Below, piece by piece: positions 3,053 to 33,811 of a stretch of DNA of 33,811 nt. The notes beneath the pieces are model-generated. The model ran no database searches. It was not told where the DNA came from and was given only the letters and a program-made list of their open reading frames with translations. The position numbers were made by a program, and so were the translations under genes. Each line of letters begins with the position of its first letter. Position 1 is the first letter of the stretch. Source of the stretch: a virus; IMG/VR virus record IMGVR_UViG_3300021961_000330, positions 1 through 33,811 of that record, one strand, 5' to 3'.

Positions 3053-3815
3053 CCAGGAAAACACGCAGCAGGATAACGTCAGCGATGACGCCCCGCTGTT
3101 AACCCCACAGGTCCAGGAAAATGTTTCTAGTGAAAACCAAGAGGCTCCGATACCTTTACACGACCCCGATCCGGCGGAGCCCAAAGCTGTTGAAGCAGCT
3201 GTAAAACCGGATTACATCCCCGATCAATTTTGGAAAGACGACGCCCCTGATGTCGAAAACCTCGCCAAGAGCTACAACGAGCTGCGAAAGAAGTTTAGTC
3301 AAGGCAAGCATAAGGTTCCAGAAAATGGTTATGACGTTAAGGGTTTGGTGGATCAAGGTCTCAATCCAGAAGATCCTACTGTCAGCCTATATCAAGATTG
3401 GGCTAAGGAAAACGGGATTAGCCAGGCTGCTTTTGAGGACTTAGCGTCGCGCGTGCTCCAGGTAAGCAACGACAACACCGCTGCAATCGAGTATGACCGC
3501 AAAGCCGAGATGAGCAAGCTGGGCGAGCGAGCGACTGAAAAGATCCAAATGGCAGAGCGGCTGCTGGTCAAAGCGCCGTTGACCAACTCGGAGCGCGAGG
3601 CGATGGCAAATAGCCTCAATTCCGCCGATGCGATCAATGCGTTTTTGAAATATCACGCCTCTCTGACCAACGAGGGCATCCCGGTGCAGCCGTCTGCCCA
3701 GGCTCCCGAGATGACCAGGGATGATTTGAACGCTGCGATTGCTGACCCCCGCTGGACGACGGATGTTGCCTTCCGCACCAGGATAGAAAAGCAATGGTTT
3801 GCCTCACAAAATTAA
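3045..3815 (+). CDS. Capsid assembly scaffolding protein
   Basis: The 256-residue product lies directly before the major capsid gene and has the composition of a scaffold: a disordered, acidic and Gln/Asn-rich N-terminus (about residues 1-60), then conserved IPDQFWKDDAPDVENLAKSYNELRKKF, a helical middle (about 110-200) and a basic C-terminal segment (DPRWTTDVAFRTRIEKQWF) of the kind that contacts coat protein. The ATG at 3045 is preferred over the in-frame TTG at 3021 because it overlaps the previous stop by a few bases as elsewhere in this operon. Scaffolds guide procapsid assembly and then leave. Confidence 0.85.
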   Translation: MDNQENTQQDNVSDDAPLLTPQVQENVSSENQEAPIPLHDPDPAEPKAVEAAVKPDYIPDQFWKDDAPDVENLAKSYNELRKKFSQGKHKVPENGYDVKGLVDQGLNPEDPTVSLYQDWAKENGISQAAFEDLASRVLQVSNDNTAAIEYDRKAEMSKLGERATEKIQMAERLLVKAPLTNSEREAMANSLNSADAINAFLKYHASLTNEGIPVQPSAQAPEMTRDDLNAAIADPRWTTDVAFRTRIEKQWFASQN

Positions 3816-3819
3816 CTTG

Positions 3820-3848
3820 TTGTCAATAAGATTTTTTGTGTATAGAAT
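3820..3848 (+). promoter_or_regulatory. Sigma70-type promoter upstream of capsid gene
   Basis: TTGTCA (3820-3825), a 17-base spacer and TAGAAT (3843-3848) match the sigma70 consensus at 5 of 6 and 5 of 6 positions with ideal spacing. The element begins 5 bases after the scaffold stop and points at the capsid gene, giving a leader of about 135 bases. It would let coat and decoration proteins be made in excess of the other structural proteins. Confidence 0.7.
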
Positions 3849-3864
3849 CAGACCCGGTGGATAA

Positions 3865-3929
3865 TCGCTTGCGCGACCCGCCTACATGGGTGAATCCCAT
3901 TAGTGGTGCGGCTACCCCCGCGCAAGCGA
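3865..3929 (+). promoter_or_regulatory. Structured mRNA leader of the capsid gene
   Basis: TCGCTTGCGCG (3865-3875) is perfectly complementary to CGCGCAAGCGA (3919-3929), an 11-bp stem. It encloses a second hairpin, ATGGG (3886-3890) with CCCAT (3896-3900) around a 5-base loop, extendable by ACC/GGT-like pairs, and CCGC (3878-3881) can pair with GCGG (3908-3911). The element lies between the promoter at 3820 and the strong ribosome binding site AGGAGG at 3975-3980. There is no U-tract after the stem, so it is not a standard terminator. mRNA stabilisation, a ribozyme-like element or a protein/packaging site are possible; I do not recognise a known RNA family. Confidence 0.6.
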
Positions 3930-3988
3930 CCGCCCGGCAAGGATAACGGATCGCGCTATATTGAAACTTCTTTTAGGAGGAATCTGCT

Positions 3989-4822
3989 ATGGCGCAGAAT
4001 GTCACTTCGGCTTTCGTTACCTTGTTTGAATCTGAGGTAAAACAAGCCTATCAAGCTAAAGCTATGTTGCGTGGTACTACCCGTACCCGTACTGGCGTCC
4101 AAGGGAATACAGTTAAGTTTCCCAAAATCGGTAAAGGTGTAGCAACTGTTCGTGTCCCCCAGACCGACGTTACTCCCTTGAACGTCACTTATAGCCAGGT
4201 AACTGCGACTATGAGCGACTACATCGCTGCTGAATACAGCGATATCTTCCACCAAAGCCACATCAATTTTGATGAGCGCCGCGAGTTGGTCGAAGTCGTT
4301 TCTATGTCGATTGCCCGCCGCATGGACCAGATCATCATCGACGCGCTCGATGCTGCATCAGGTGCATCTACGGTTGCAACTGGCGTGGGTGGTGCTACTA
4401 CCAACATGAACGTCGATAAGCTGCGTGCAGCTGCTAAAGCGATGAACGAGAAAAACGTGCCAGCAGATGGTCGTTACTTGTTGATGCACGCTTCTCAGCT
4501 CGACGCTTTGTTGGGTACTACCGAAGCCACTTCCTCTGACTTCGCGTCAGTTAAGGCTTTAGTCCAGGGTGAGATCAACTCATTCATGGGCTTCAACATT
4601 ATCACCATCGGTGATCGTGATGAGGGCGGTTTGCCCAAGCCATCTACCCGCACTTGCTATGCCTGGCAACGCGATGCAATGGGCTATGCCGAGTCAATGG
4701 CGCAAAAAACCGAAGTTAACTACGTTCCAGAAAAAACGTCGTTCTTGGTTGCGTCTATGTTCTCTGCTGGCGCGGTGTCCATCGACGATGAAGGCATTGT
4801 CAAAATCAGCTGTACTGAATAA
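3989..4822 (+). CDS. Major capsid protein
   Basis: The 277-residue product is the major head protein by position (scaffold, coat, decoration) and by likeness to the coat family of BPP-1-like podoviruses. The N-terminus MAQNVTSAFVTLFESEVKQAYQ, the segment RTRTGVQGNTVKFPKIGKGVA and the following beta region fit an HK97-fold coat: N-arm, E-loop strands (about residues 35-65), spine helix with FDERRELVEVVSMSIARRMDQ (about 92-115), and a P/A-domain with GRYLLMHASQLDALLG. It has the strongest ribosome binding site in the region, AGGAGG 8 bases upstream, with its own promoter and a structured leader. Hundreds of copies form the icosahedral shell. Confidence 0.9.
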   Translation: MAQNVTSAFVTLFESEVKQAYQAKAMLRGTTRTRTGVQGNTVKFPKIGKGVATVRVPQTDVTPLNVTYSQVTATMSDYIAAEYSDIFHQSHINFDERRELVEVVSMSIARRMDQIIIDALDAASGASTVATGVGGATTNMNVDKLRAAAKAMNEKNVPADGRYLLMHASQLDALLGTTEATSSDFASVKALVQGEINSFMGFNIITIGDRDEGGLPKPSTRTCYAWQRDAMGYAESMAQKTEVNYVPEKTSFLVASMFSAGAVSIDDEGIVKISCTE

Positions 4823-8491: not shown

Positions 8492-10675
8492 ATGGCTACA
8501 TTACCCCGCTATCAACGGTTAGGTGTCCGAGCTGCTCAGCCTGGCGATATTGATTTTGCTGATGCCCGTGAGGCAGCCCGGCTTGGTCAAAATATTAGCC
8601 AACAAGTCGAGCGCATGGCGTCGTTTGTTTACAAAGAAGAACAAATGAAAGCCGAGCAGCGTGGTGCTCAAATAGCGCAAGAGCTCGGGGCAACCGAGAC
8701 GTTGACCAGGTTGCAGTCAGCTGGCGGTCCGACCACTATTGCCGAGCGGTCTGCCTATAACATCGCGAATCGGATTGCATCAACAGAAGTCGAGACAGAA
8801 GCTCGCCTGGTTATTGGCAACATCCTAAACGAAGCCGAAATAAATAACACGCCACTACCAGATGTTCAGGCTCGGCTGCGCAACGTTGTGGACGGTTTTC
8901 CTGCCGCGATGTCGAGCCTCGATCCCCAGGTTGCTGGCGTGCTGCGTGCCCAACTATTTGGCGTGGCTGCCCAGGCAGAAATGCGTTACACATCGATTGC
9001 GTCCAAGAAGGCGCAAGAAGATTTGCAAGGCAAAGCCATTCAGGGCATCACACAAAGACAGAACGATGTTTATTCGTTTGTTAGATCAGACATGGACCCG
9101 GCTGCCAAAGAAGAAGCCTTGGGCTACGAGATAGCTGGTCTTGAGACGTTCATGCGTGATCGTGGGTTCAGCGAAGCGCAAATATCAAAAGTGCTGATTG
9201 AAACCAAAGCGCAGTCCGCGATTGAAAGCACAATTTCAACATTTCAGCGATTGCAAACTCTGGATGAACAAAAAGCGTTTATTGAGCAGCTGGAGAAAAA
9301 CCCACCAGCGGAGCTGTCATTAGAGAAAACACGAACCTTATCAAAGTCATTCCAGACAGAAGTTAACCACACTATTGCCACCTTGAAAGAGGAGTTGCGT
9401 GCCAGGACGGCTGCGGCTAAAGCAGAAAGAACAGACATTAAGTCCGACCTGGCTGACATGAGATCAATCATGGCTAAGGGTGGCACGCCGAACCCGGAAA
9501 CAATGGCTGCGCTTGAGACGAGAGCCAATGCGCTGCCAGCAGATATCCGGGGAGATCTAAGCATCAACATTGCCGAGATGAAGTTTGTGCAAAGCCGCGC
9601 TGAGTTGTTCCGCAAGATGTCGCCGACGCAGCTGCAAACCACAATTAACGAGTTGTCTCAGGGCATCGACGGTCTTGGTGGCAAAGGTTTGGATACGATT
9701 GCTGAGGTCGAAGTGTTGGATGTGGCGAAAGGGCTGCTCAACACCATGAACGCAGAGCTTAATAAAGACCCGCTATCCTGGGGCGCTAATACAGGCGTTA
9801 TTCAATTCAAGCCAATCGATCTTTCCACACCAGAGACAGCAGAAGCAACAGTTAAGCAGCGTATCGCTGATGCGCGCACAGTAAGTGCCAGGTACGGAAA
9901 CGCGCCAAGATTTTTGACAGACGAAGAAACAAACGTGATGTCAACGCTATTGACCGAATCCCCAAGACCGCAGCGCATGGCATTGCTGTCTGGGCTTGTC
10001 AAAAATTTTGGTACTCATTCCGCGACCGTATTAAAGCAGCTGTCAAATGTTGATCCCAGCCTGGCACACGTTGGCGGTCTGGTTTTGCTTGGTAAAGCGC
10101 CAACAGCCAACACGGCGATGGCTGGCTTTGACATGATGAAAGAGGGCAACAAGGCGATTGGCGTAGATAGCGCAGAGGCTAAAGAATCATTCGCCTCCGC
10201 TGTTGGTCCGGCGTTGCTGTATCAATCGCAATCACGCGCGTCTGGCATGGAGGTGGCGCGAGCTATCTATACCAAGCAGGCAATTGATAAAGGTCTGGAC
10301 CAGTTCGACGACAAGCTCTGGGAGAAGTCTATTCAGCTGGCGTTCGGTTTTGATGAGCGCACCAAGACAGGTGGCATTGCCGAGGTCCGGGGCAAGATGA
10401 CCCTGCTGCCATCTGATTTCGATGACGACAAGTTTGAAAGTGTTTTAGAAACCCTGACCTTAAAACAGCTCCAGGACAATACCGGGTTGACCGACATTGA
10501 CCCGGCGATCGTAGCCAGCATCAATAAAAACGATAAGGTTTACCCGGTGCTGGAAAGCGAGGGTAGATATTTGCTAGTCTTTGATAACGGCAATGGCGGC
10601 GTTAGCCACTTTACTGATCGCAAGGGGCACGTTATCTATTTGAACATTCCTAAGCTAATGGGCACACGCAAATGA
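8492..10675 (+). CDS. Internal virion (ejection) protein, T7 gp15-like
   Basis: The 727-residue product is almost wholly helical, polar, without membrane segments or recognisable catalytic motifs; T7 gp15 has 747 residues. The start (LPRYQRLGVRAAQPGDIDFADAREAARLGQNISQQVERMASFVYKEE) is typical of podovirus ejection proteins, including the Pro-Arg-Tyr-x-Arg opening. Such proteins leave the head before DNA and build the channel across the cell envelope. It overlaps the next gene by 4 bases (ATGA). Confidence 0.7.
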   Translation: MATLPRYQRLGVRAAQPGDIDFADAREAARLGQNISQQVERMASFVYKEEQMKAEQRGAQIAQELGATETLTRLQSAGGPTTIAERSAYNIANRIASTEVETEARLVIGNILNEAEINNTPLPDVQARLRNVVDGFPAAMSSLDPQVAGVLRAQLFGVAAQAEMRYTSIASKKAQEDLQGKAIQGITQRQNDVYSFVRSDMDPAAKEEALGYEIAGLETFMRDRGFSEAQISKVLIETKAQSAIESTISTFQRLQTLDEQKAFIEQLEKNPPAELSLEKTRTLSKSFQTEVNHTIATLKEELRARTAAAKAERTDIKSDLADMRSIMAKGGTPNPETMAALETRANALPADIRGDLSINIAEMKFVQSRAELFRKMSPTQLQTTINELSQGIDGLGGKGLDTIAEVEVLDVAKGLLNTMNAELNKDPLSWGANTGVIQFKPIDLSTPETAEATVKQRIADARTVSARYGNAPRFLTDEETNVMSTLLTESPRPQRMALLSGLVKNFGTHSATVLKQLSNVDPSLAHVGGLVLLGKAPTANTAMAGFDMMKEGNKAIGVDSAEAKESFASAVGPALLYQSQSRASGMEVARAIYTKQAIDKGLDQFDDKLWEKSIQLAFGFDERTKTGGIAEVRGKMTLLPSDFDDDKFESVLETLTLKQLQDNTGLTDIDPAIVASINKNDKVYPVLESEGRYLLVFDNGNGGVSHFTDRKGHVIYLNIPKLMGTRK

Positions 10676-13600
10676 CGTTTCTGCTGCAAGAGCGAGATCC
10701 CTTTGACCTCACGCCAGAGAATGGCGTTAGCAAGCCCATCGGCGGGTTTTCAGAAAACGTATCGGCTGCCTACCAGGGAGCCAGGATGAATGACCAGGCT
10801 TACAGCGAAGCCACCATCCTGAAAGATCAATGGGGTCCAATCGTTGACATGGTTAACGAACGCTCGGGCGGCAAGTCATTTTTTAACCCAGCCAATTATC
10901 TAAGCAGCGGGTTCTTTGATGCGTCGGCATCAGAGGGTAACGCGCAGCGCCAATACCAATATACCGCTGCGCAAATTGTTAAATTCATAAACCAAAACAA
11001 AGAGGCATACCCAGAGCTGCAATGGGTAACGCACGATGAAGTATTGAATCGCGGCAAGCAAGCGGCGATAAAGGCGCGCCAGAATTTAATGGATCTTGAG
11101 GGAAGATCGCCTGGTGGCTTGAATACGATTGGTAGATTTGTCGGCGCAATTGGAGGCGCTGCCACAGACCCGTTTAACTGGCAAGGTGGTTTGGCGGTTC
11201 GCACCAGCGGCTCGCTGTTGTCTATGTCTTTTAAAGAGGCGTTTGTTAACGCTGGCTTAGAGTCAATGGCGCAGTCTGGTGTGCAGAAGTGGTACAAAGA
11301 GCTGGGCTACGAGTACACGCCGGAACAGTTCTGGTATTCAGTAGCCGCAGCTGGTGCGTTTGGCGGGGCGATGCCTGGCGCGCTCAAGATCGGCGGCAAG
11401 ACAATTTCCCTGACGACAGACCAGATGCGCAAGGGATACGACGCCCTGGTTAAGTCTGGCGCACACAAGCCATCGGAAGTGGAGCTGTCTGCGCTGCGGC
11501 AATCCGAGAACATTGTTGAGGACATGAAAGCGAACCCCCTGGTTGATGCTGTTGAGCATGAGACCAGGCTGAACGAGGCTAAGGCTGCGGTTGATAGCGG
11601 CGAGCCCCCACCGATCTCTGACGCACCCGCATCCCCTTTAAAACCAACGCGCAGCGTAAATGAAGCAGATAACCTGGACGGGCTGATCTACAAGTTTGAT
11701 CCGCAAACAATTAAGGTTGACGCCGAGACATTCCAATTCAAAGCTGGTGGCGATGAGTTCGGCGTGACTGAGCGGCTGCAAGGCGTGACCCAATGGGACC
11801 CGATCAAAGCCGGGCAAGTCACCATTTACGAATATGCCGATGGCGGGCGCTTTGTTGCCGACGGGCATCAGCGCGTGGGGCTGGCGCGTCGCATCCAATC
11901 CCAGGACCCTACCCAGGAAGTGGCGCTTTATGGTCACTTGCTGCGCGAGACCGATGGCATCACGCCGGAGATGGCGCGCGTAATTGCAGCCGTAAAGAAC
12001 ATTGCTGAGGGTACGGGGACCGCAATCGATGCAGCCAAGGTGCTGCGCGTCGCGCCTGAGCGTATCGGCGAGCTGCCACCCAGGTCTGCCCTGGTCCGCC
12101 AGGCGCAGGGGCTGGTGCTGCTATCTGACAAGGCGTTTGGTGCTGTTGTTAACCAGGTAATCCCGGCAAACTACGCTGCATTAGTTGGGCGCTTAGTGCC
12201 GGAAGATGAGGGCTTGCAAGATGCAGCCATTGCCATTTTGGCAAAGACAGACCCTGCCAACGAGTTCCAGGCTGAAGCCATCATACGCCAAGTTCGCGAT
12301 GCTGGTGCGCAAACAATGAAACAAGAGGGGCTGTTCGGCGAGGAGATAATCACCGAGAGTTTTTTTACCGAGCGCGCCAGGATCTTGGACCGGGCTCAGA
12401 AGCAACTGCGCCAGGATAAGGCGGCATTTAGTACATTAACCCGCAATGCCGAACGCCTGGAAGCAGAAGGCAACCAACTGGCACGCCAGGCTAACGAGAA
12501 AAGGACAGCTAATGACACGCAAGCAATCGCGCTCCTCCAGGCGCTCGCAAACATCAGAGGACCAATATCAGACGCCCTCAGCGCAGCAGCCAGATCCGCT
12601 CGCGAAAGCGGCAGCTACGCAGAACCTACTCGCAACTTCGTCGATGCTGTCAGACGAGCAGCTGAATCAGGCGATTTCGACCGGGTATCGTCTGGCGATG
12701 TTGGACAGCTTGTCGATGCTCCAACGCAAAGCCGCACGGCTAAGGATGTCTCAGAGCGAGTCGTCGATGACTTCGACGAGCCAGCCGGAGTAGGGGCTAA
12801 GGACCAGGGCGACCAGATCGAGGCAGATCTGTTCGGGCAGCGCGACCCGGTTCGAGAGGCTGTCCAGGAAGATATCAATCTGCGCCAGGATTTAAAACGC
12901 CAGCTCGACGAGGGTGCTGCGGAAGCCGACATCGACAATCACCCGGCGGTTGTCAAAGCGATCGAGGAAGCCAAAGCCATCCAGGAAACGCACCTGGTAG
13001 AGGGTTATGGTTCTGACTTGTGGTTATCGTCGCGCGAGTTTAAGATAGGCGATGAGGCGGTTGTTGGTTACAGCTCAGCTGTTGAGCGGTTGTTTGAAAG
13101 GGCTCGCCGACTAGCCTGGACTGACGAGGGCAAGGCAGCTCCCGATGTGCCGACCAAGTATGAAAAGAAAGCGGTCATTGTCCTCGGTCCCCCAGCAGCT
13201 GGCAAGAGCACGATTGCCAACCCTATTGCGCAAAAGATGGGCGCGGTTATCCTGGACCCGGATGATATTAAGAAGGCGATGCCGGAATATAAAAACGGCA
13301 TTGGCGCTAACGCCGTCCATGAAGAAAGCAGCTACATAACCAGCTTGGTCGAACAGGTCGCGGTAGGCAGCGGTGCTAACGTCTTGATCCCCAAGGTTGG
13401 CAGTAACCCGAAAAGCGTCAAAGGCTTGATCGAGCGGCTGCGCCAGAACGGTTACGAGATTGACCTGGTAGACATGAAGGTGGATTACCAGGAAGCGCGG
13501 CGTCGGATGTTCGTGCGCTTTGTGGATACAGGTCGCCTGGTCCCGCCAAACTATGTGCGCGAAGTGGGCAACAATCCTGGCAAAACATTTGATACATTAA

Positions 13601-13956
13601 AGGCAGAAGGAGCAGCAGATGGCTACACAAGGATCGACAACAACGTCCCCCAGGGAGCAGAAAGACCAATCCTCGAAGATACCCGGAACCTACTGGACGG
13701 AACAGAGCTACGATTACGAGACGGCGGAGAGCCGGGCTTTGGATATGGCGCAGAACGCTCAATCACAGAAACTGGTGCAAGGGATCTTAAAGAAGCTGAA
13801 CCAGAAATAGACATGGACCTGGAGGTCCCGGTTGATTTGCGCGTGGACCCAGAGACCGGGGAGATTGCAGCGCAGACAGTAACGCTGCGGCAGATCCAAG
13901 ATGATATTGCCCAGGACCAGAAAATGCTAGACCGCTTGAGAGGGTGCGCCAAATGA
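10672..13956 (+). CDS. Polyvalent ejection protein with ParB-like and zeta-toxin kinase domains
   Basis: The 1094-residue product is the third ejection-type protein. Residues 1-270 contain the virion-protein part, with GAIGGAATDPFNWQGGLAV and a hydrophobic stretch near 225-240. Around residues 335-500 lies a ddrB-type ParB-like domain: FGVTERLQGVTQWDPIKAG, then VADGHQRVGLARR at 395-407, where the Asp-Gly-His-x-Arg motif corresponds to the ParB nucleotide-binding loop. Residues about 833-965 form a zeta-toxin-type P-loop kinase with Walker A GPPAAGKST at 839-847, LDPDDIKKAMPEY at 861-873 and an Arg-rich lid near 943-960. Such polyvalent proteins are thought to enter the cell with the DNA and act on host targets. 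No lytic transglycosylase motif, as in T7 gp16, is apparent. Confidence 0.8.
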   Translation: MTFLLQERDPFDLTPENGVSKPIGGFSENVSAAYQGARMNDQAYSEATILKDQWGPIVDMVNERSGGKSFFNPANYLSSGFFDASASEGNAQRQYQYTAAQIVKFINQNKEAYPELQWVTHDEVLNRGKQAAIKARQNLMDLEGRSPGGLNTIGRFVGAIGGAATDPFNWQGGLAVRTSGSLLSMSFKEAFVNAGLESMAQSGVQKWYKELGYEYTPEQFWYSVAAAGAFGGAMPGALKIGGKTISLTTDQMRKGYDALVKSGAHKPSEVELSALRQSENIVEDMKANPLVDAVEHETRLNEAKAAVDSGEPPPISDAPASPLKPTRSVNEADNLDGLIYKFDPQTIKVDAETFQFKAGGDEFGVTERLQGVTQWDPIKAGQVTIYEYADGGRFVADGHQRVGLARRIQSQDPTQEVALYGHLLRETDGITPEMARVIAAVKNIAEGTGTAIDAAKVLRVAPERIGELPPRSALVRQAQGLVLLSDKAFGAVVNQVIPANYAALVGRLVPEDEGLQDAAIAILAKTDPANEFQAEAIIRQVRDAGAQTMKQEGLFGEEIITESFFTERARILDRAQKQLRQDKAAFSTLTRNAERLEAEGNQLARQANEKRTANDTQAIALLQALANIRGPISDALSAAARSARESGSYAEPTRNFVDAVRRAAESGDFDRVSSGDVGQLVDAPTQSRTAKDVSERVVDDFDEPAGVGAKDQGDQIEADLFGQRDPVREAVQEDINLRQDLKRQLDEGAAEADIDNHPAVVKAIEEAKAIQETHLVEGYGSDLWLSSREFKIGDEAVVGYSSAVERLFERARRLAWTDEGKAAPDVPTKYEKKAVIVLGPPAAGKSTIANPIAQKMGAVILDPDDIKKAMPEYKNGIGANAVHEESSYITSLVEQVAVGSGANVLIPKVGSNPKSVKGLIERLRQNGYEIDLVDMKVDYQEARRRMFVRFVDTGRLVPPNYVREVGNNPGKTFDTLKAEGAADGYTRIDNNVPQGAERPILEDTRNLLDGTELRLRDGGEPGFGYGAERSITETGARDLKEAEPEIDMDLEVPVDLRVDPETGEIAAQTVTLRQIQDDIAQDQKMLDRLRGCAK

Positions 13957-26654: not shown

Positions 26655-27365
26655 TTAGGCTGCCAGGGCAGCGCGGTCTAAGATATTCTTCACTTGCTGC
26701 GGTCTCCAAGCGGGACCGTTGGCTGCGTCGGGCAGCACGGGCTGGTTGTTTTTATCGATGCGCAGCGGAACCCTCCACTCGTTGAGCTCGTTCGCCAGGT
26801 CGCGCAGCGTGGTGTGACCGTAGGCTTGCAGCTTTTCGATAAAGGGCAGGACACGCAGGGCGTTGTCGGCTGCTTTGGCTGCCAGGGCAGCGCCACCAGC
26901 TGCCGCGCCAACTTGAGGGCAAGGGCTGCCCAGCTGCTTGGTCTTGCGTACCTGGGCGAGACCCTCGCGGGTCCGGCGGCTGATACGACGGCTCTCAAAC
27001 TCGGCGATCGACGCGAGCAGCTGGATGGTTAAGCGGCTAACGTCGGGGTCATCCATGTTGGGCATATCCAGGGCGACAAACTTAACCTGGCTGTCCATCA
27101 GGTTAGCGATGAAGCTCAGGTTACGGGCGAGACGGTCCAGCTTGGCGACGACCAGGACCGCTCCGGCTTTGCGGCATTGGTCGATGGCAGCCAGCAGCTG
27201 CGGGCGGTAGTTCTTGCGACCGCTTTCGATCTCGACAAACTCAGCCAGGATCTCGCAGCCCCTGGCGCAGCACCAGTTCTGGACCGCCTCACGCTGCGCG
27301 CCGAGACCGTTGCCAGCCTCGCCCTGGCGCTGGGTTGAGACCCGGAAATAGACAATGGCTTTCAT
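26655..27365 (-). CDS. Serine recombinase (resolvase/invertase or small integrase)
   Basis: The 236-residue product has an intact serine-recombinase catalytic domain: YFRVSTQRQ with catalytic Ser10 and Arg8, ESGRKNYRPQL, then LVVAKLDRLARN with D77, R78 and R81 corresponding to the active-site Arg pair, and an E-helix (SRLTIQLLASIAEFESRRISRRTREGL). After an Ala/Gly-rich linker (about 150-170) comes a DNA-binding end with TTLRDLANELNEWRVPLR and GPAWRPQQVKNIL, the recombinase-type helix-turn-helix. It could integrate the phage or invert a segment. Strong ribosome binding site AGGAGG precedes the ATG. No flanking inverted repeats suggest an invertible segment nearby. It supports a temperate or formerly temperate lifestyle. 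Confidence 0.85.
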   Translation of the reverse strand: MKAIVYFRVSTQRQGEAGNGLGAQREAVQNWCCARGCEILAEFVEIESGRKNYRPQLLAAIDQCRKAGAVLVVAKLDRLARNLSFIANLMDSQVKFVALDMPNMDDPDVSRLTIQLLASIAEFESRRISRRTREGLAQVRKTKQLGSPCPQVGAAAGGAALAAKAADNALRVLPFIEKLQAYGHTTLRDLANELNEWRVPLRIDKNNQPVLPDAANGPAWRPQQVKNILDRAALAA

Positions 27366-29266: not shown

Positions 29267-29439
29267 CCTGGGTTAACTACCGCATGAGCGCCGCGCAGCC
29301 GTTCAAGATGTGCAGCAAGTGCTCGCAGCTGCGCGAGCCGATCGATGGCATCCAGGCAAGCCCGACCAGGTGGGTCTGCGGCTCTTGCTGGCGGCAGCGG
29401 GTCACGGCTAAGCAGCAGCCCAAGAAGGGCAGCAAGTGA
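29263..29439 (+). CDS. 58-residue zinc-ribbon protein
   Basis: The product carries two CxxC pairs, C17/C20 (MCSKCSQLREPIDG) and C39/C42 (RWVCGSCW), spaced to make a single zinc ribbon, followed by a basic tail. A nucleic acid or protein-contact role near the replication genes is likely. GGGAGG precedes the ATG, which overlaps the preceding stop. The next gene's GTG overlaps its stop (GTGA). Confidence 0.7.
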   Translation: MTWVNYRMSAAQPFKMCSKCSQLREPIDGIQASPTRWVCGSCWRQRVTAKQQPKKGSK

Positions 29440-29864
29440 TCCAAGATTTAAACTTCACAGTCCCTGGTCAACCCATTGGCAAGGGGCGACCGCGCTTTAC
29501 ACGCCAGGGCAGGACCTACACGCCGAGCCGGACCAAAGATTACGAGGACCTGATCCGCTCGGCTGCACGCGAGGCGATGCGCGAGCTCAACCAGCAGCCA
29601 GCGCAGCTGCCATGCACGGTTAAGATCCTGGCAGAGTTTGAGATACCCAAGAGTTGGGCTAAGTACAAAAAAGAAGCCGCCCAGGCAAACAAGGGCGGAT
29701 ATAAACCTGGCAAACCTGACATCGACAACATAGCAAAAGCAGTCCTGGACGGGTGCAACGGCATCGCTTACGAGGACGACAGCCTGGTCTATCGATTGGA
29801 GATCGAGAAATCCTACGCTGCCACATTCCCTGCTCTCTATGTAACGGTGATATTCGATGAGTAA
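29436..29864 (+). CDS. rusA: RusA-type Holliday junction resolvase
   Basis: The 142-residue product matches RusA: VPGQPIGKGRPRFTRQGRTYTP at the start and PDIDNIAKAVLDGCNGIAYEDDSLVYRLEIEKSYA. Asp95, Asp97 and Asp115 with Lys101 correspond to the catalytic Asp70, Asp72, Asp91 and Lys76 of the E. coli enzyme. E. coli RusA has 120 residues. It resolves branched recombination intermediates, which would clear concatemers for packaging. It starts at GTG 29436, overlapping the previous stop. Confidence 0.92.
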   Translation: MIQDLNFTVPGQPIGKGRPRFTRQGRTYTPSRTKDYEDLIRSAAREAMRELNQQPAQLPCTVKILAEFEIPKSWAKYKKEAAQANKGGYKPGKPDIDNIAKAVLDGCNGIAYEDDSLVYRLEIEKSYAATFPALYVTVIFDE

Positions 29865-29872
29865 CAACCACA

Positions 29873-30736
29873 ATGAAGATCGAGACGCTAAGGTCCAAAG
29901 ACCTGAGACGGTACAGCATCCTGCCCATCAAAGCGGTCCAGGACCCACAGATCAACCGCACGGCAGCCCTGGCTGTCCTGGCTGTCATTTGCAGCTACAC
30001 CGATGAGCTGGGGAGAACGTTTGTGAGCCAAGCCCGCATCGCCAGCGACCTGGGTATCAGCAGACAAGCAGCCAACCGCCAGGTCAAGCGGCTGCTGGAG
30101 CTCGGCTACCTGGTGTATGCCAGGCATCAGTACAAGGGACAAAAGACCAACACGGTCAAGGTGATCTACGACGAGGACATCAAGACAGAGGACGACGCAC
30201 GCTCAGCCCTGACAGTCAAACAGCAGATCGAGCTCGCAGAACGGGAGCTAGGGCTTGTGGATAACGTTGTGCATAAGGATGTGGATATCAAGTGGACAAG
30301 TGATGACCAGGATAACCAGGTGCAACATCTAGGGTTGCAGGCAGGTGCAACATCTGAGGTTGACAGACCTGCAACATCTAGGGTTGCACTAAACGAGTCA
30401 TTAACGAGTAATAGTAACGGTATTAAGGGAGAAGCAAAAAGATTGTGTGTTATGTTTTCACGGGCAGCAGATGCTCATGGCACGCCCAGGACATTCCAGG
30501 ATCGAGACGTTCAGGTCATGGAGAGCTGGGTCAGGCAGGGGCTCGATGGCGATACCTGGCAGCAGATCCTGGCAGGGCACACGACCTGGTGCAAGCAGAC
30601 AGGAAAGGACATGGCAAGGGGTATTGGATACTTCGAGCAACCCGTGAAGAAGGCGCTGGGGCGCAGCAGGGACCCAGCAATCAACGCTGCCATCCAGGGA
30701 TTGATCGGCAGCATGACGAGCGGAGCACGCAGATGA
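29873..30736 (+). CDS. Replication initiator with winged-helix domain and internal origin
   Basis: The 287-residue product has an N-terminal winged helix (about residues 30-100): ALAVLAVICSYTDELGRTFVSQARIASDLGISRQAANRQVKRLLELGYLVYARHQYKG, typical of phage O-like replication proteins. A polar linker (about 110-185) leads to a C-terminal helical domain with FSRAADAHGTPRTFQDRDVQVMESWVRQGLDGDTWQQIL. The linker DNA contains three iterons (30321-30388) and an A/T-rich stretch, exactly the arrangement of lambda O. No helicase loader (lambda P or DnaC-like) follows; the C-terminal domain may recruit host helicase directly. It overlaps the following frame's ATGATG by a few bases. Confidence 0.75.
   Translation: MKIETLRSKDLRRYSILPIKAVQDPQINRTAALAVLAVICSYTDELGRTFVSQARIASDLGISRQAANRQVKRLLELGYLVYARHQYKGQKTNTVKVIYDEDIKTEDDARSALTVKQQIELAERELGLVDNVVHKDVDIKWTSDDQDNQVQHLGLQAGATSEVDRPATSRVALNESLTSNSNGIKGEAKRLCVMFSRAADAHGTPRTFQDRDVQVMESWVRQGLDGDTWQQILAGHTTWCKQTGKDMARGIGYFEQPVKKALGRSRDPAINAAIQGLIGSMTSGARR
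30321..30388. other. Iteron array, probable replication origin
   Basis: Three 19-bp iterons: TGCAACATCTAGGGTTGCA at 30321-30339, a variant TGCAACATCTGAGGTTGAC at 30346-30364, and an identical copy of the first at 30370-30388. Starts are 25 and 24 bases apart. Each is itself a dyad (TGCAAC and GTTGCA arms). Downstream bases 30389-30460 are A/T-rich with a repeated AACGAGT (30392-30398, 30403-30409), a likely unwinding region. Confidence 0.8.
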
Positions 30737-30931: not shown

Positions 30932-31228
30932 ATGAAACGATATAACGTCAACCAAGCAAAAGAAGTGCCAGGACGAGACAAGCCCGTGTGGATCAAGCAC
31001 GGGGTTGCATTTGAGAAGGATGGCAAGGTGCGCATCAAGCTGGAGAGCATCCCTATCCCAAACCGGGACGGTGACATCTGGCTAAGCCTATTCGACGCCG
31101 ATACCTCTGAGAGCCCTCAGAACGGCTCAGGACGGGCTTTTAGCGGTCAGTCTAACCCTACCCCTAGGGCAGAGCGTTACGGCGCTCACAAGGGCGGTGA
31201 TGGCTTTGAAGATGATATCCCGTTCTAA
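30932..31228 (+). CDS. SSB-like protein with acidic DDIPF tail
   Basis: The 98-residue product has a beta-rich N-terminal part (VPGRDKPVWIKHGVAFEKDGKVRIKLESIPIPNRDGDIWLSLFDAD), a Gly/Ser-rich linker and ends in GFEDDIPF. That end is the hallmark tip by which bacterial SSB binds partner proteins. The body is shorter than a usual OB-fold SSB and does not show its classic motifs, so it may be a divergent or minimal single-strand binding protein. Position between the initiator and terminase genes fits. AAGGAG lies 7 bases upstream. The stop overlaps the TerS start by one base. Confidence 0.65.
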   Translation: MKRYNVNQAKEVPGRDKPVWIKHGVAFEKDGKVRIKLESIPIPNRDGDIWLSLFDADTSESPQNGSGRAFSGQSNPTPRAERYGAHKGGDGFEDDIPF

Positions 31229-32009: not shown

Positions 32010-33523
32010 GCAATATACCGTCGTTAGATCTGGATTTTTCAAATAGCCCGACCGTGTGGAAGTTTCTGCACGACGACAGCTTTGTGCGTGGTTTGATGGG
32101 TCCGGTTGGCTCGGGGAAGTCTTACGGCTGCGCGTCGGAGATTATTCGCCGGGCGGTCCAGCAAAAGCCGTCGCCCAGGGACGGGATTCGCTACTCGCGG
32201 TTTGTGATTGTGCGAAACACCTACCCTGAGCTGCGCACAACGACGATCAAGACCTGGCAGGAGCTGTTCCCGGAGGACATCTGGGGCGCTATTCGCTGGC
32301 AGCCACCAATTACCCACCACCTAAAGCTGCCCGCCAGGGGGGATGCAGCCGGGATTGACTGCGAAGTTATCTTCATGGCGCTGACCAGCCCCCAGGATGT
32401 GCGTAAATTGTTGTCCCTGGAGCTCACGGGAGCCTGGGTAAACGAGGCGCGCGAGCTGCCCAAGGCGGTTATCGATGGTTTGACCCACCGGGTTGGGCGA
32501 TATCCCACTAAGCGCGATGGCGGTCCGACCTGGTACGGCATTTGGATGGACACTAACCCGCCGGATAATGATCATTGGTGGCACGACCTAGCAGAAAAAA
32601 ACCCGATTAAGGGAGAGTTCCCCTGGCAGTTCTACCGCCAGCCTGGTGGCGTCATCCAAGCGGACAAGGGTGAGGTCCCTGAAAGCAGCCCGGAGAGCCG
32701 GGGTTTTATGTTTTCCGGTGGGAAGTGGTGGAAGATCAACCCCAAAGCGGAGAACAGGCACAACTTGCCGCCTGGTTACTACTCGCAACTAATGGGCGGA
32801 AAAAATGCGGATTGGATTCGCTGCTATGCCGAGGGTAAATACACCTTTGTGCAGGAGGGTCGCCCGGTCTGGTCCGAATATGACGACGAGCTGATGAGCG
32901 GCGACGTTGAGGTGGACCCGTATTACCCGATTCAGATCGGGGTTGACTTCGGTTTGACGCCGGCAGCTATCTTTGGGCAGCGCACCGCTGGCGGCGCGTG
33001 GCGGATCTGCGATGAGCTGGTGACGTTCGATATGGGGCTGGAGCGTTTTGGGCGCGAATTACTCAGCAGGATCGCTGAGCGTTACTCGAAACACGAGATC
33101 CTGATCTGGGGGGACCCCGCTGGGAACAAACGCGACGAGATCTACGAAGTGACCGCCTTCGACCACCTGAGAAGTCTGGGGTTCAAGGCGCAGCCAACTG
33201 AGTCCAACGCCTTCCAGGTTCGTCGTGAGGCGGGCGCGTCGCCAATGACCAGGCTTGTCAACGGGAAGCCCGGTCTCATTGTCGATAAAAAGTGCTTGCG
33301 CCTCCGCAAAAGTCTTAGCGGCGGCTATTTCTTCAAGCGGCAAAGCCTGGGCGCTGGGCAAGAGCGGTATAAAGACAGCCCCGTTAAGAACGAACATTCG
33401 CATTGTGGTGACGCCTTTGGTTATCTGATGTTGGGCGGTGGCGAGCAGCGGCGGCTGCGCCGGGGTTCGTATCAATCAGCTGGCGGGACATACACCGCAG
33501 CAACCGATTTTGAGATTTTCTAA
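32006..33523 (+). CDS. terL: Terminase large subunit
   Basis: The 505-residue product has both terminase domains. Packaging ATPase: Walker A GPVGSGKS at residues 32-39 and Walker B-type TGAWVNEARE with Glu147. Headful nuclease of RNase H fold: IGVDFG with Asp314, IWGDPAG with Asp370, and CGDAFGY with Asp469, the three expected metal ligands. The start codon is TTG (32006), overlapping the previous stop (TTGA), with GGGGAG upstream; no in-frame ATG gives a full ATPase domain. The stop TAA overlaps the next ATG by one base. The last 117 bases recur as bases 1-117. Confidence 0.95.
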   Translation: MSNIPSLDLDFSNSPTVWKFLHDDSFVRGLMGPVGSGKSYGCASEIIRRAVQQKPSPRDGIRYSRFVIVRNTYPELRTTTIKTWQELFPEDIWGAIRWQPPITHHLKLPARGDAAGIDCEVIFMALTSPQDVRKLLSLELTGAWVNEARELPKAVIDGLTHRVGRYPTKRDGGPTWYGIWMDTNPPDNDHWWHDLAEKNPIKGEFPWQFYRQPGGVIQADKGEVPESSPESRGFMFSGGKWWKINPKAENRHNLPPGYYSQLMGGKNADWIRCYAEGKYTFVQEGRPVWSEYDDELMSGDVEVDPYYPIQIGVDFGLTPAAIFGQRTAGGAWRICDELVTFDMGLERFGRELLSRIAERYSKHEILIWGDPAGNKRDEIYEVTAFDHLRSLGFKAQPTESNAFQVRREAGASPMTRLVNGKPGLIVDKKCLRLRKSLSGGYFFKRQSLGAGQERYKDSPVKNEHSHCGDAFGYLMLGGGEQRRLRRGSYQSAGGTYTAATDFEIF

Positions 33524-33811
33524 TGCTTTCTTTCGGAAATAACTTTCTAAGCACCGGGCAGCAGCTGGTCCCCTTTCAGCCAGAGCATTTATCGCACCTG
33601 GAGCTAAAAGGCGACGAGCTGCATTTTGCCGATCTGATCCCGAATTATTACCAATACATCCTGGATAATGCAATCCCCGAGCTCGCTTGGACCGGGATTC
33701 GTGATGGCAAACCCGTTTTGATCTTTGGGCTGCGCCCTTATTGGGTTGGTGTTGCAGAGGTTTGGATGGTTCCTGGTCGTGGAATCGAGCGCAATCCGAT
33801 AGCGTTAATCA
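33407..33811. repeat. Terminal redundancy, right copy
   Basis: This matches 1-405 with three silent differences at 33534, 33591 and 33687. Joining the ends gives a unit of 33,406 bases with unbroken genes through the junction. Confidence 0.95.
33523..33811 (+). CDS. gp13-like protein, 5' part only (second copy)
   Basis: The first 96 codons of the gene seen complete at 117-593, cut by the end of the window. The encoded residues are identical to the first copy; three codons differ silently (ttc/ttt for Phe4, tta/ttg for Leu23, gct/gcc for Ala55). Confidence 0.9.
   Translation, partial: MLSFGNNFLSTGQQLVPFQPEHLSHLELKGDELHFADLIPNYYQYILDNAIPELAWTGIRDGKPVLIFGLRPYWVGVAEVWMVPGRGIERNPIALI

Follow-up and report, generated by a model that had tools for sequence, protein, structure and literature searches.

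Genome context

The window, by which we mean the whole stretch of DNA analysed here, is a virus record of 33,811 bases. It begins and ends with a direct repeat of 405 bp (positions 1-405 against 33407-33811, 99.3% identity). The record is accordingly terminally redundant or circular, though it is classed as linear, and probably represents a complete genome of about 33.4 kb. Searches with Pfam and PHROG profiles identified podovirus head, portal and tail proteins among the main ORFs, along with RecT-like and RecE-like proteins, a RusA, a terminase, a holin, an endolysin and the N-terminal domain of a serine recombinase, while no polymerase, primase or helicase family was matched among these ORFs. 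An earlier reading made from the sequence only had described the surroundings as those of a T7/BPP-1-like podovirus without polymerase genes.

The nearest isolate is the Methylophilales phage MEP301, which has a similar gene set, also without polymerase genes, and a TerL of 70% identity (PMC8024684). The genome paper for MEP301 mentions no origin (PMC8024684). Close relatives of P0001 were found neither in viral or genome contigs, searched with its own peptides, nor in bacterial genomes by alignment search; since the bacterial genomes gave no relative, no prophage or host can be named. Two other genes of the window may be mentioned. The serine recombinase (26655-27365, minus strand) consists of a resolvase N-terminal domain without the large-recombinase domain, as reported for MEP301, and 10672-13956 encodes a giant virion-type protein with matches to polynucleotide kinase and ATPase PHROGs in its C-terminal part.

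The region of interest lies in and around a gene for a putative replication initiator, with the following features.

29436-29864, plus strand: RusA Holliday-junction resolvase (PF05866, 2.4e-32), the next gene upstream of the initiator
29873-30736, plus strand: initiator gene, 287 aa (HTH_36, PF13730, 1.7e-9; replication-initiation PHROGs; AlphaFold2 domains)
29963-30163, plus strand: predicted winged-helix DNA-binding domain, residues 31-97 (AlphaFold2; fold comparison)
30062-30103, plus strand: predicted recognition helix, residues 64-77, with invariant Arg64 and specificity residue Gln65 (AlphaFold2; family alignment)
30065-30067, plus strand: codon for Gln65, from which the iteron half-site can be predicted
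30256-30264, plus strand: DnaA box 1, TGTGGATAA, exact
30268-30276, plus strand: DnaA box 2, TGTGCATAA, one mismatch
30280-30288, plus strand: DnaA box 3, TGTGGATAT, one mismatch
30291-30299, plus strand: weak DnaA-like box, AGTGGACAA, two mismatches, which may be due to chance
30321-30339, plus strand: iteron 1, TGCAAC-N7-GTTGCA (direct-repeat search)
30346-30364, plus strand: iteron 2, a variant that keeps the left arm TGCAAC and has a degenerate right arm, GTTGAC (direct-repeat search)
30370-30388, plus strand: iteron 3, identical to iteron 1 (direct-repeat search)
30389-30448, plus strand: A/T-rich stretch with AACGAGT at 30392 and 30403, proposed to act as unwinding element
30407-30661, plus strand: predicted C-terminal helical domain, residues 179-263, a proposed helicase or primase recruiter (AlphaFold2)
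30932-31228, plus strand: candidate single-strand DNA-binding protein, from its position only, with no Pfam match

The last of these is considered a candidate because in MEP301 the annotated single-strand DNA-binding gene directly precedes terS.

The initiator protein

AlphaFold2 predicts a winged helix, a disordered linker and a helical C-terminal domain. Compared with CRP, RbkR and other winged helices, the N-terminal domain gives Z scores of 8.4-9.2, and Foldseek places two staphylococcal plasmid initiators (4pql and 4pt7) at ranks 2 and 3, with weak E-values. The low-confidence linker (residues 132-180) coincides with the DnaA boxes and the iterons. The fold search with the C-terminal domain gave weak and mixed matches, with no known fold clearly matched; the DnaD domain 2i5u (Z 5.1, rmsd 2.6 over 67 residues) is tied with unrelated AAA+ lids reaching Z 6.3.

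PHROGs for replication initiation or O-like proteins match 30 of 30 family members, the window protein over its N-terminal part only. Neither PF04492 (Phage_rep_O) nor the RepA_N domain is among the Pfam matches of the initiator at an E-value of 0.1, and lambda O gave no significant match to an HMM built from the N-terminal part of the initiator family. By the profiles tried, then, the window initiator belongs to neither the lambda O nor the RepA_N protein family.

Iterons, A/T-rich DNA and DnaA boxes

A direct-repeat search returned the same three 19-bp dyad iterons, two identical and one variant, that the sequence-only reading had pointed out in the linker-coding part of the gene, with start-to-start spacings of 25 and 24 bp; iteron 2 differs from iteron 1 at four positions. 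With up to three mismatches allowed, the 19-mer TGCAACATCTAGGGTTGCA occurs in the window only at 30321-30339 and 30370-30388 (0.02 expected by chance). Dyads with at most one arm mismatch are confined to the initiator gene in the window and in four near-complete relatives that were scanned, and the sites lie some 450 bp inside it. The same reading had placed the iterons in different reading frames, which is correct in that more than one frame is used, but the frames are 1, 2 and 2, that is, two and not three. Its argument that the iterons are no by-product of a protein repeat is borne out, because none of 100 codon shuffles that leave the protein unchanged scores as high for repeats as the real gene.

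Immediately after the iterons, the stretch 30389-30448, with the doubled AACGAGT already noticed from the sequence, is 65% A+T (45% for the gene) and ranks in the top 1.7% of the window's 60-mers. Across 77 family genes, the distance from the last iteron to the start of the most A/T-rich 60 bp has a median of 11 nt (interquartile range 9-11). In five genomes the detrended GC-skew minimum, suggested as a check on the position of the origin, lies at -1477, +539, -1179, +4790 and +544 bp relative to the iterons, thus within 1.5 kb in four of five; we do not take it as proof, since the direction of the genes changes at that point too.

Upstream of the iterons there are three DnaA boxes in 12-bp steps and in one orientation, which the sequence-only reading did not mention (TGTGGATAA is the reverse complement of TTATCCACA). 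Thirty initiator genes, 25.5 kb in all, contain 19 exact boxes; shuffles give 1.7, and the 258 kb of DNA outside these genes has 8. The codon choice in the linker points the same way: 21 of 26 linker Val-Asp pairs are spelled GTG-GAT, while GTG makes up about a quarter of all valine codons. Boxes, iterons and A/T peak stand in a fixed order under DNA-level constraint.

The boxes are not universal. About 60% of relatives have one or more boxes that are exact or differ at a single position, and 31 of 76 have none; as some 40% do without, the design cannot depend on DnaA. A DnaA box is lacking in 19 of the 20 genes that have at least four iterons; this inverse relation is strong in raw counts, with too few independent changes for a test on a tree.

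Conservation among relatives

Relatives were gathered by TerL and initiator searches of IMG/VR, and the main set comprised 121 genes encoding 77 distinct proteins, with further proteins fetched afterwards. A loose statistic on dyads with 6-mer arms failed to separate genes from codon shuffles, and a clustered 7-mer test was used instead. With it, two or more clustered dyads with a common half-site were found in the linker-coding part in 27 of 30 non-redundant relatives, as compared with 1.5 expected from codon shuffles. Of 77 genes, 44 have iterons in two or more frames. It had been suggested that the iterons should persist in the same gene region while the linker protein varies, and this is what we see: linker sequence and iteron frame change, and the iterons are kept. 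The opposite case, a related phage with the same initiator and no iterons, is represented only by MEP301 gp55, and there only in part, as gp55 is a 201-aa protein, annotated as hypothetical, that has just the winged helix in common with the window initiator (36-37% identity) and lacks the linker, the C-terminal domain and the iterons.

A proposed recognition code at residue 65

The half-site differs between lineages, being TGCAAC or TGAAAC, TGTAAC, or TGTGAC or TGTTAC, and these differences follow residue 65 of the initiator. Gln65 goes with C or A at base 3 (TG[C/A]AAC), Pro65 with T3 and A4 (TGTAAC), Thr65 with T3 and either G or T at base 4, and Glu65 with T3 and G4. Residue 65 gives the correct base 3 for every one of 76 distinct proteins; the baseline is 40, and the best of the other alignment columns outside the linker scores 68. 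For one protein (L151) no half-site could be made out clearly, and the shifted half-site calls of three others (L155, L067 and L019) were re-registered by eye. Seven distinct proteins fetched later all fit the code, one of them (L366) in a shifted register. When a tree is made with the recognition helix and the linker left out, all six of the independent contrasts available agree with the coupling (p = 0.031); for base 4 the independent contrasts number only two. The half-site can be predicted from linker columns 159-172 as well; these were discounted because the iterons themselves spell them.

Other positions of the site hardly vary: arm positions 1, 2 and 5 are T, G and A, and G2, which accompanies an invariant Arg64, is present in 377 of 388 arms. 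The initiator helix SRQAANR aligns with SRETVGR of CRP, in which TGTGA is contacted at G2 by Arg180 and at the G4:C4 pair by Glu181 and Arg185 (PMC11253593). The pairing of Arg64 with G2, and of Glu65 with TGTGAC (G4 in 26 of 28 arms of Glu65 proteins), resembles that of Arg180 and Glu181 in CRP. The covariation of residue 65 with the half-site strongly suggests that the encoded protein reads the iterons; binding by its winged helix is the simplest cause of the coupling.

Comparison with known origins

In P1 oriR, F oriS and RK2 oriV, DnaA boxes, iterons and A/T-rich DNA lie side by side as they do in the window; these origins differ in lying outside the rep gene and in using an initiator of the RepE/TrfA type. 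In lambda O, the DNA-binding part is N-terminal, as is predicted for the window initiator.

The sequence-only reading had called the site a lambda-style origin, and as to layout this stands: ori-lambda (NC_001416; Stx phages, PMC7466680) likewise has iterons inside the initiator gene, in mixed frames, with A/T-rich DNA directly 3'. By the same measure as above, the A/T peak in lambda O comes 3 nt after iteron 4 and the iterons are spaced 20-24 bp apart. The likeness does not extend to the protein, which has no detectable sequence relation to lambda O, nor to the half-site, which is a different one, and the tandem DnaA boxes of the window are an addition, as a scan of lambda O for them found none. 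Unlike lambda, the window phage has no recognizable P-like loader gene among its main ORFs.

The pSK41-type RepA of staphylococcal plasmids (PMC5703833) is a further parallel, its N-terminal winged helix (4pql and 4pt7, the structural matches given above) binding boxes in the middle of its own gene, with a linker encoded by the origin and a small helical C-terminal domain; the hybrid pPR9 Rep shares the HTH_36 Pfam domain with the window initiator (PMC5703833). The differences are that the staphylococcal plasmids have no DnaA boxes (PMC5703833), and that the window initiator has no RepA_N match and a C-terminal similarity to DnaD that is weak. We did not find rep-internal iterons combined with DnaA boxes in the literature searched, to which subscription reviews did not belong, and priority is accordingly unproven.

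A viral Phage_rep_O gene (L179, 9482-10477, minus strand) does have this combination: inside it, in the same order, stand three exact copies of TGTGGATAA in 12-bp steps, iterons with dyad symmetry and an A/T-rich stretch. It is a PF04492 member with GTAACT half-sites and is missed by the N-terminal HMM of our initiator family, and because this unrelated gene has the same order, the layout extends beyond the family.

Interpretation and alternatives

We consider it very probable, from the sequence comparisons above, that the region described here is the phage's theta replication origin, situated inside the initiator gene and working in the manner of ori-lambda and of the pSK41-type rep-internal origins, with host DnaA sites added. 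Dimers of the encoded initiator would read the three dyad iterons through the winged helix, by way of Arg64 and residue 65, and host DnaA would probably bind the tandem boxes just upstream. Together, initiator and DnaA may wrap or strain the DNA so that the A/T-rich stretch 30389-30448, starting about 10 nt downstream, opens. The C-terminal helical domain might then recruit a host helicase or primase, as we propose because the main ORFs of the phage gave no polymerase, primase or helicase family.

The dyads could instead be operators, acting on the gene's own transcription or on the packaging genes downstream. A winged-helix protein that binds dyads would suit a repressor, initiators such as plasmid Reps often both repress and initiate, and the coupling of residue 65 to the half-site would follow equally. 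We nevertheless think this improbable, given that the sites are so deep within the gene and nowhere else in the genome at one mismatch or fewer, that an A/T-rich peak follows at a fixed distance and DnaA boxes adjoin, that all 30 family members match replication-initiation PHROGs, and that lambda O shows the same geometry. That the dyads are mRNA hairpins (a 6-bp stem with a 7-8-nt loop) which slow translation or decay, the arm changes being RNA covariation, is very unlikely. The arms do change in a complementary fashion between lineages (TGCAAC/GTTGCA to TGTAAC/GTTACA), but a stem in the RNA does not explain why arm bases should track a recognition-helix residue or why the T, G and A at positions 1, 2 and 5 should hardly vary whatever the pairing, and one of the three window copies has a broken arm.

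Still less credible, to the point of being negligible, is the notion that the repeats result from a repetitive protein linker. The 24-bp iteron spacing and the 12-bp box spacing do keep frame and give VDNS and TSEV repeats; the codon shuffles, however, fail to recreate the repeats, and together with the mixed frames they already refute this explanation for the iterons, while for the boxes the use of GTG in linker valines before Asp is far above the gene-wide share. A variant of the origin reading, rather than its opposite, is that the DnaA-like boxes are not used by DnaA and that iterons and A/T stretch alone matter, as in lambda. The relatives without boxes, and the fact that only one of the three window boxes is exact, lend this some weight, but against the strong excess of exact TGTGGATAA in initiator genes, in 12-bp steps and one orientation, and the three exact boxes before the iterons of the unrelated Phage_rep_O gene, we regard it as rather unlikely.

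If the origin reading is right, an origin and an initiator can now be named for a group of phages whose nearest cultured relative, MEP301, has a homologue annotated as hypothetical. Site and reader would lie in one gene, making each genome a matched protein-DNA pair, and for this reason a winged-helix recognition code could be derived from the sequences alone, with natural variants available to test it. A broader proposal, to which we give slightly less than an even chance, is that in these polymerase-less and mostly uncultivated phages, whose origin lies within the initiator gene, origin specificity has been switched repeatedly through one residue of the recognition helix (position 65: Gln, Pro, Thr or Glu), with all iterons changing in step, so that related phages would be mutually blind replicons, and that DnaA boxes and extra iterons, which occupy the same upstream place, may substitute for each other. 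Should boxes and extra iterons indeed replace each other, a phage origin could shift between host and phage control.

DnaA boxes elsewhere

Some further occurrences of these boxes were recorded in the course of the searches. One relative (L014, with Pro65), from a lineage that has no DnaA boxes inside the initiator gene, has three exact boxes outside it (gene at 3221-4051). An HTH initiator-like gene in another contig (L186, 1823-2359, minus strand) contains two exact tandem boxes, encoding VDKSVDN, and no clustered dyads were found in it. In viral contigs, tandem copies of TGTGGATAA spaced 12 bp apart are common, with at least 120 loci (L166-L285), mostly not inside long ORFs.
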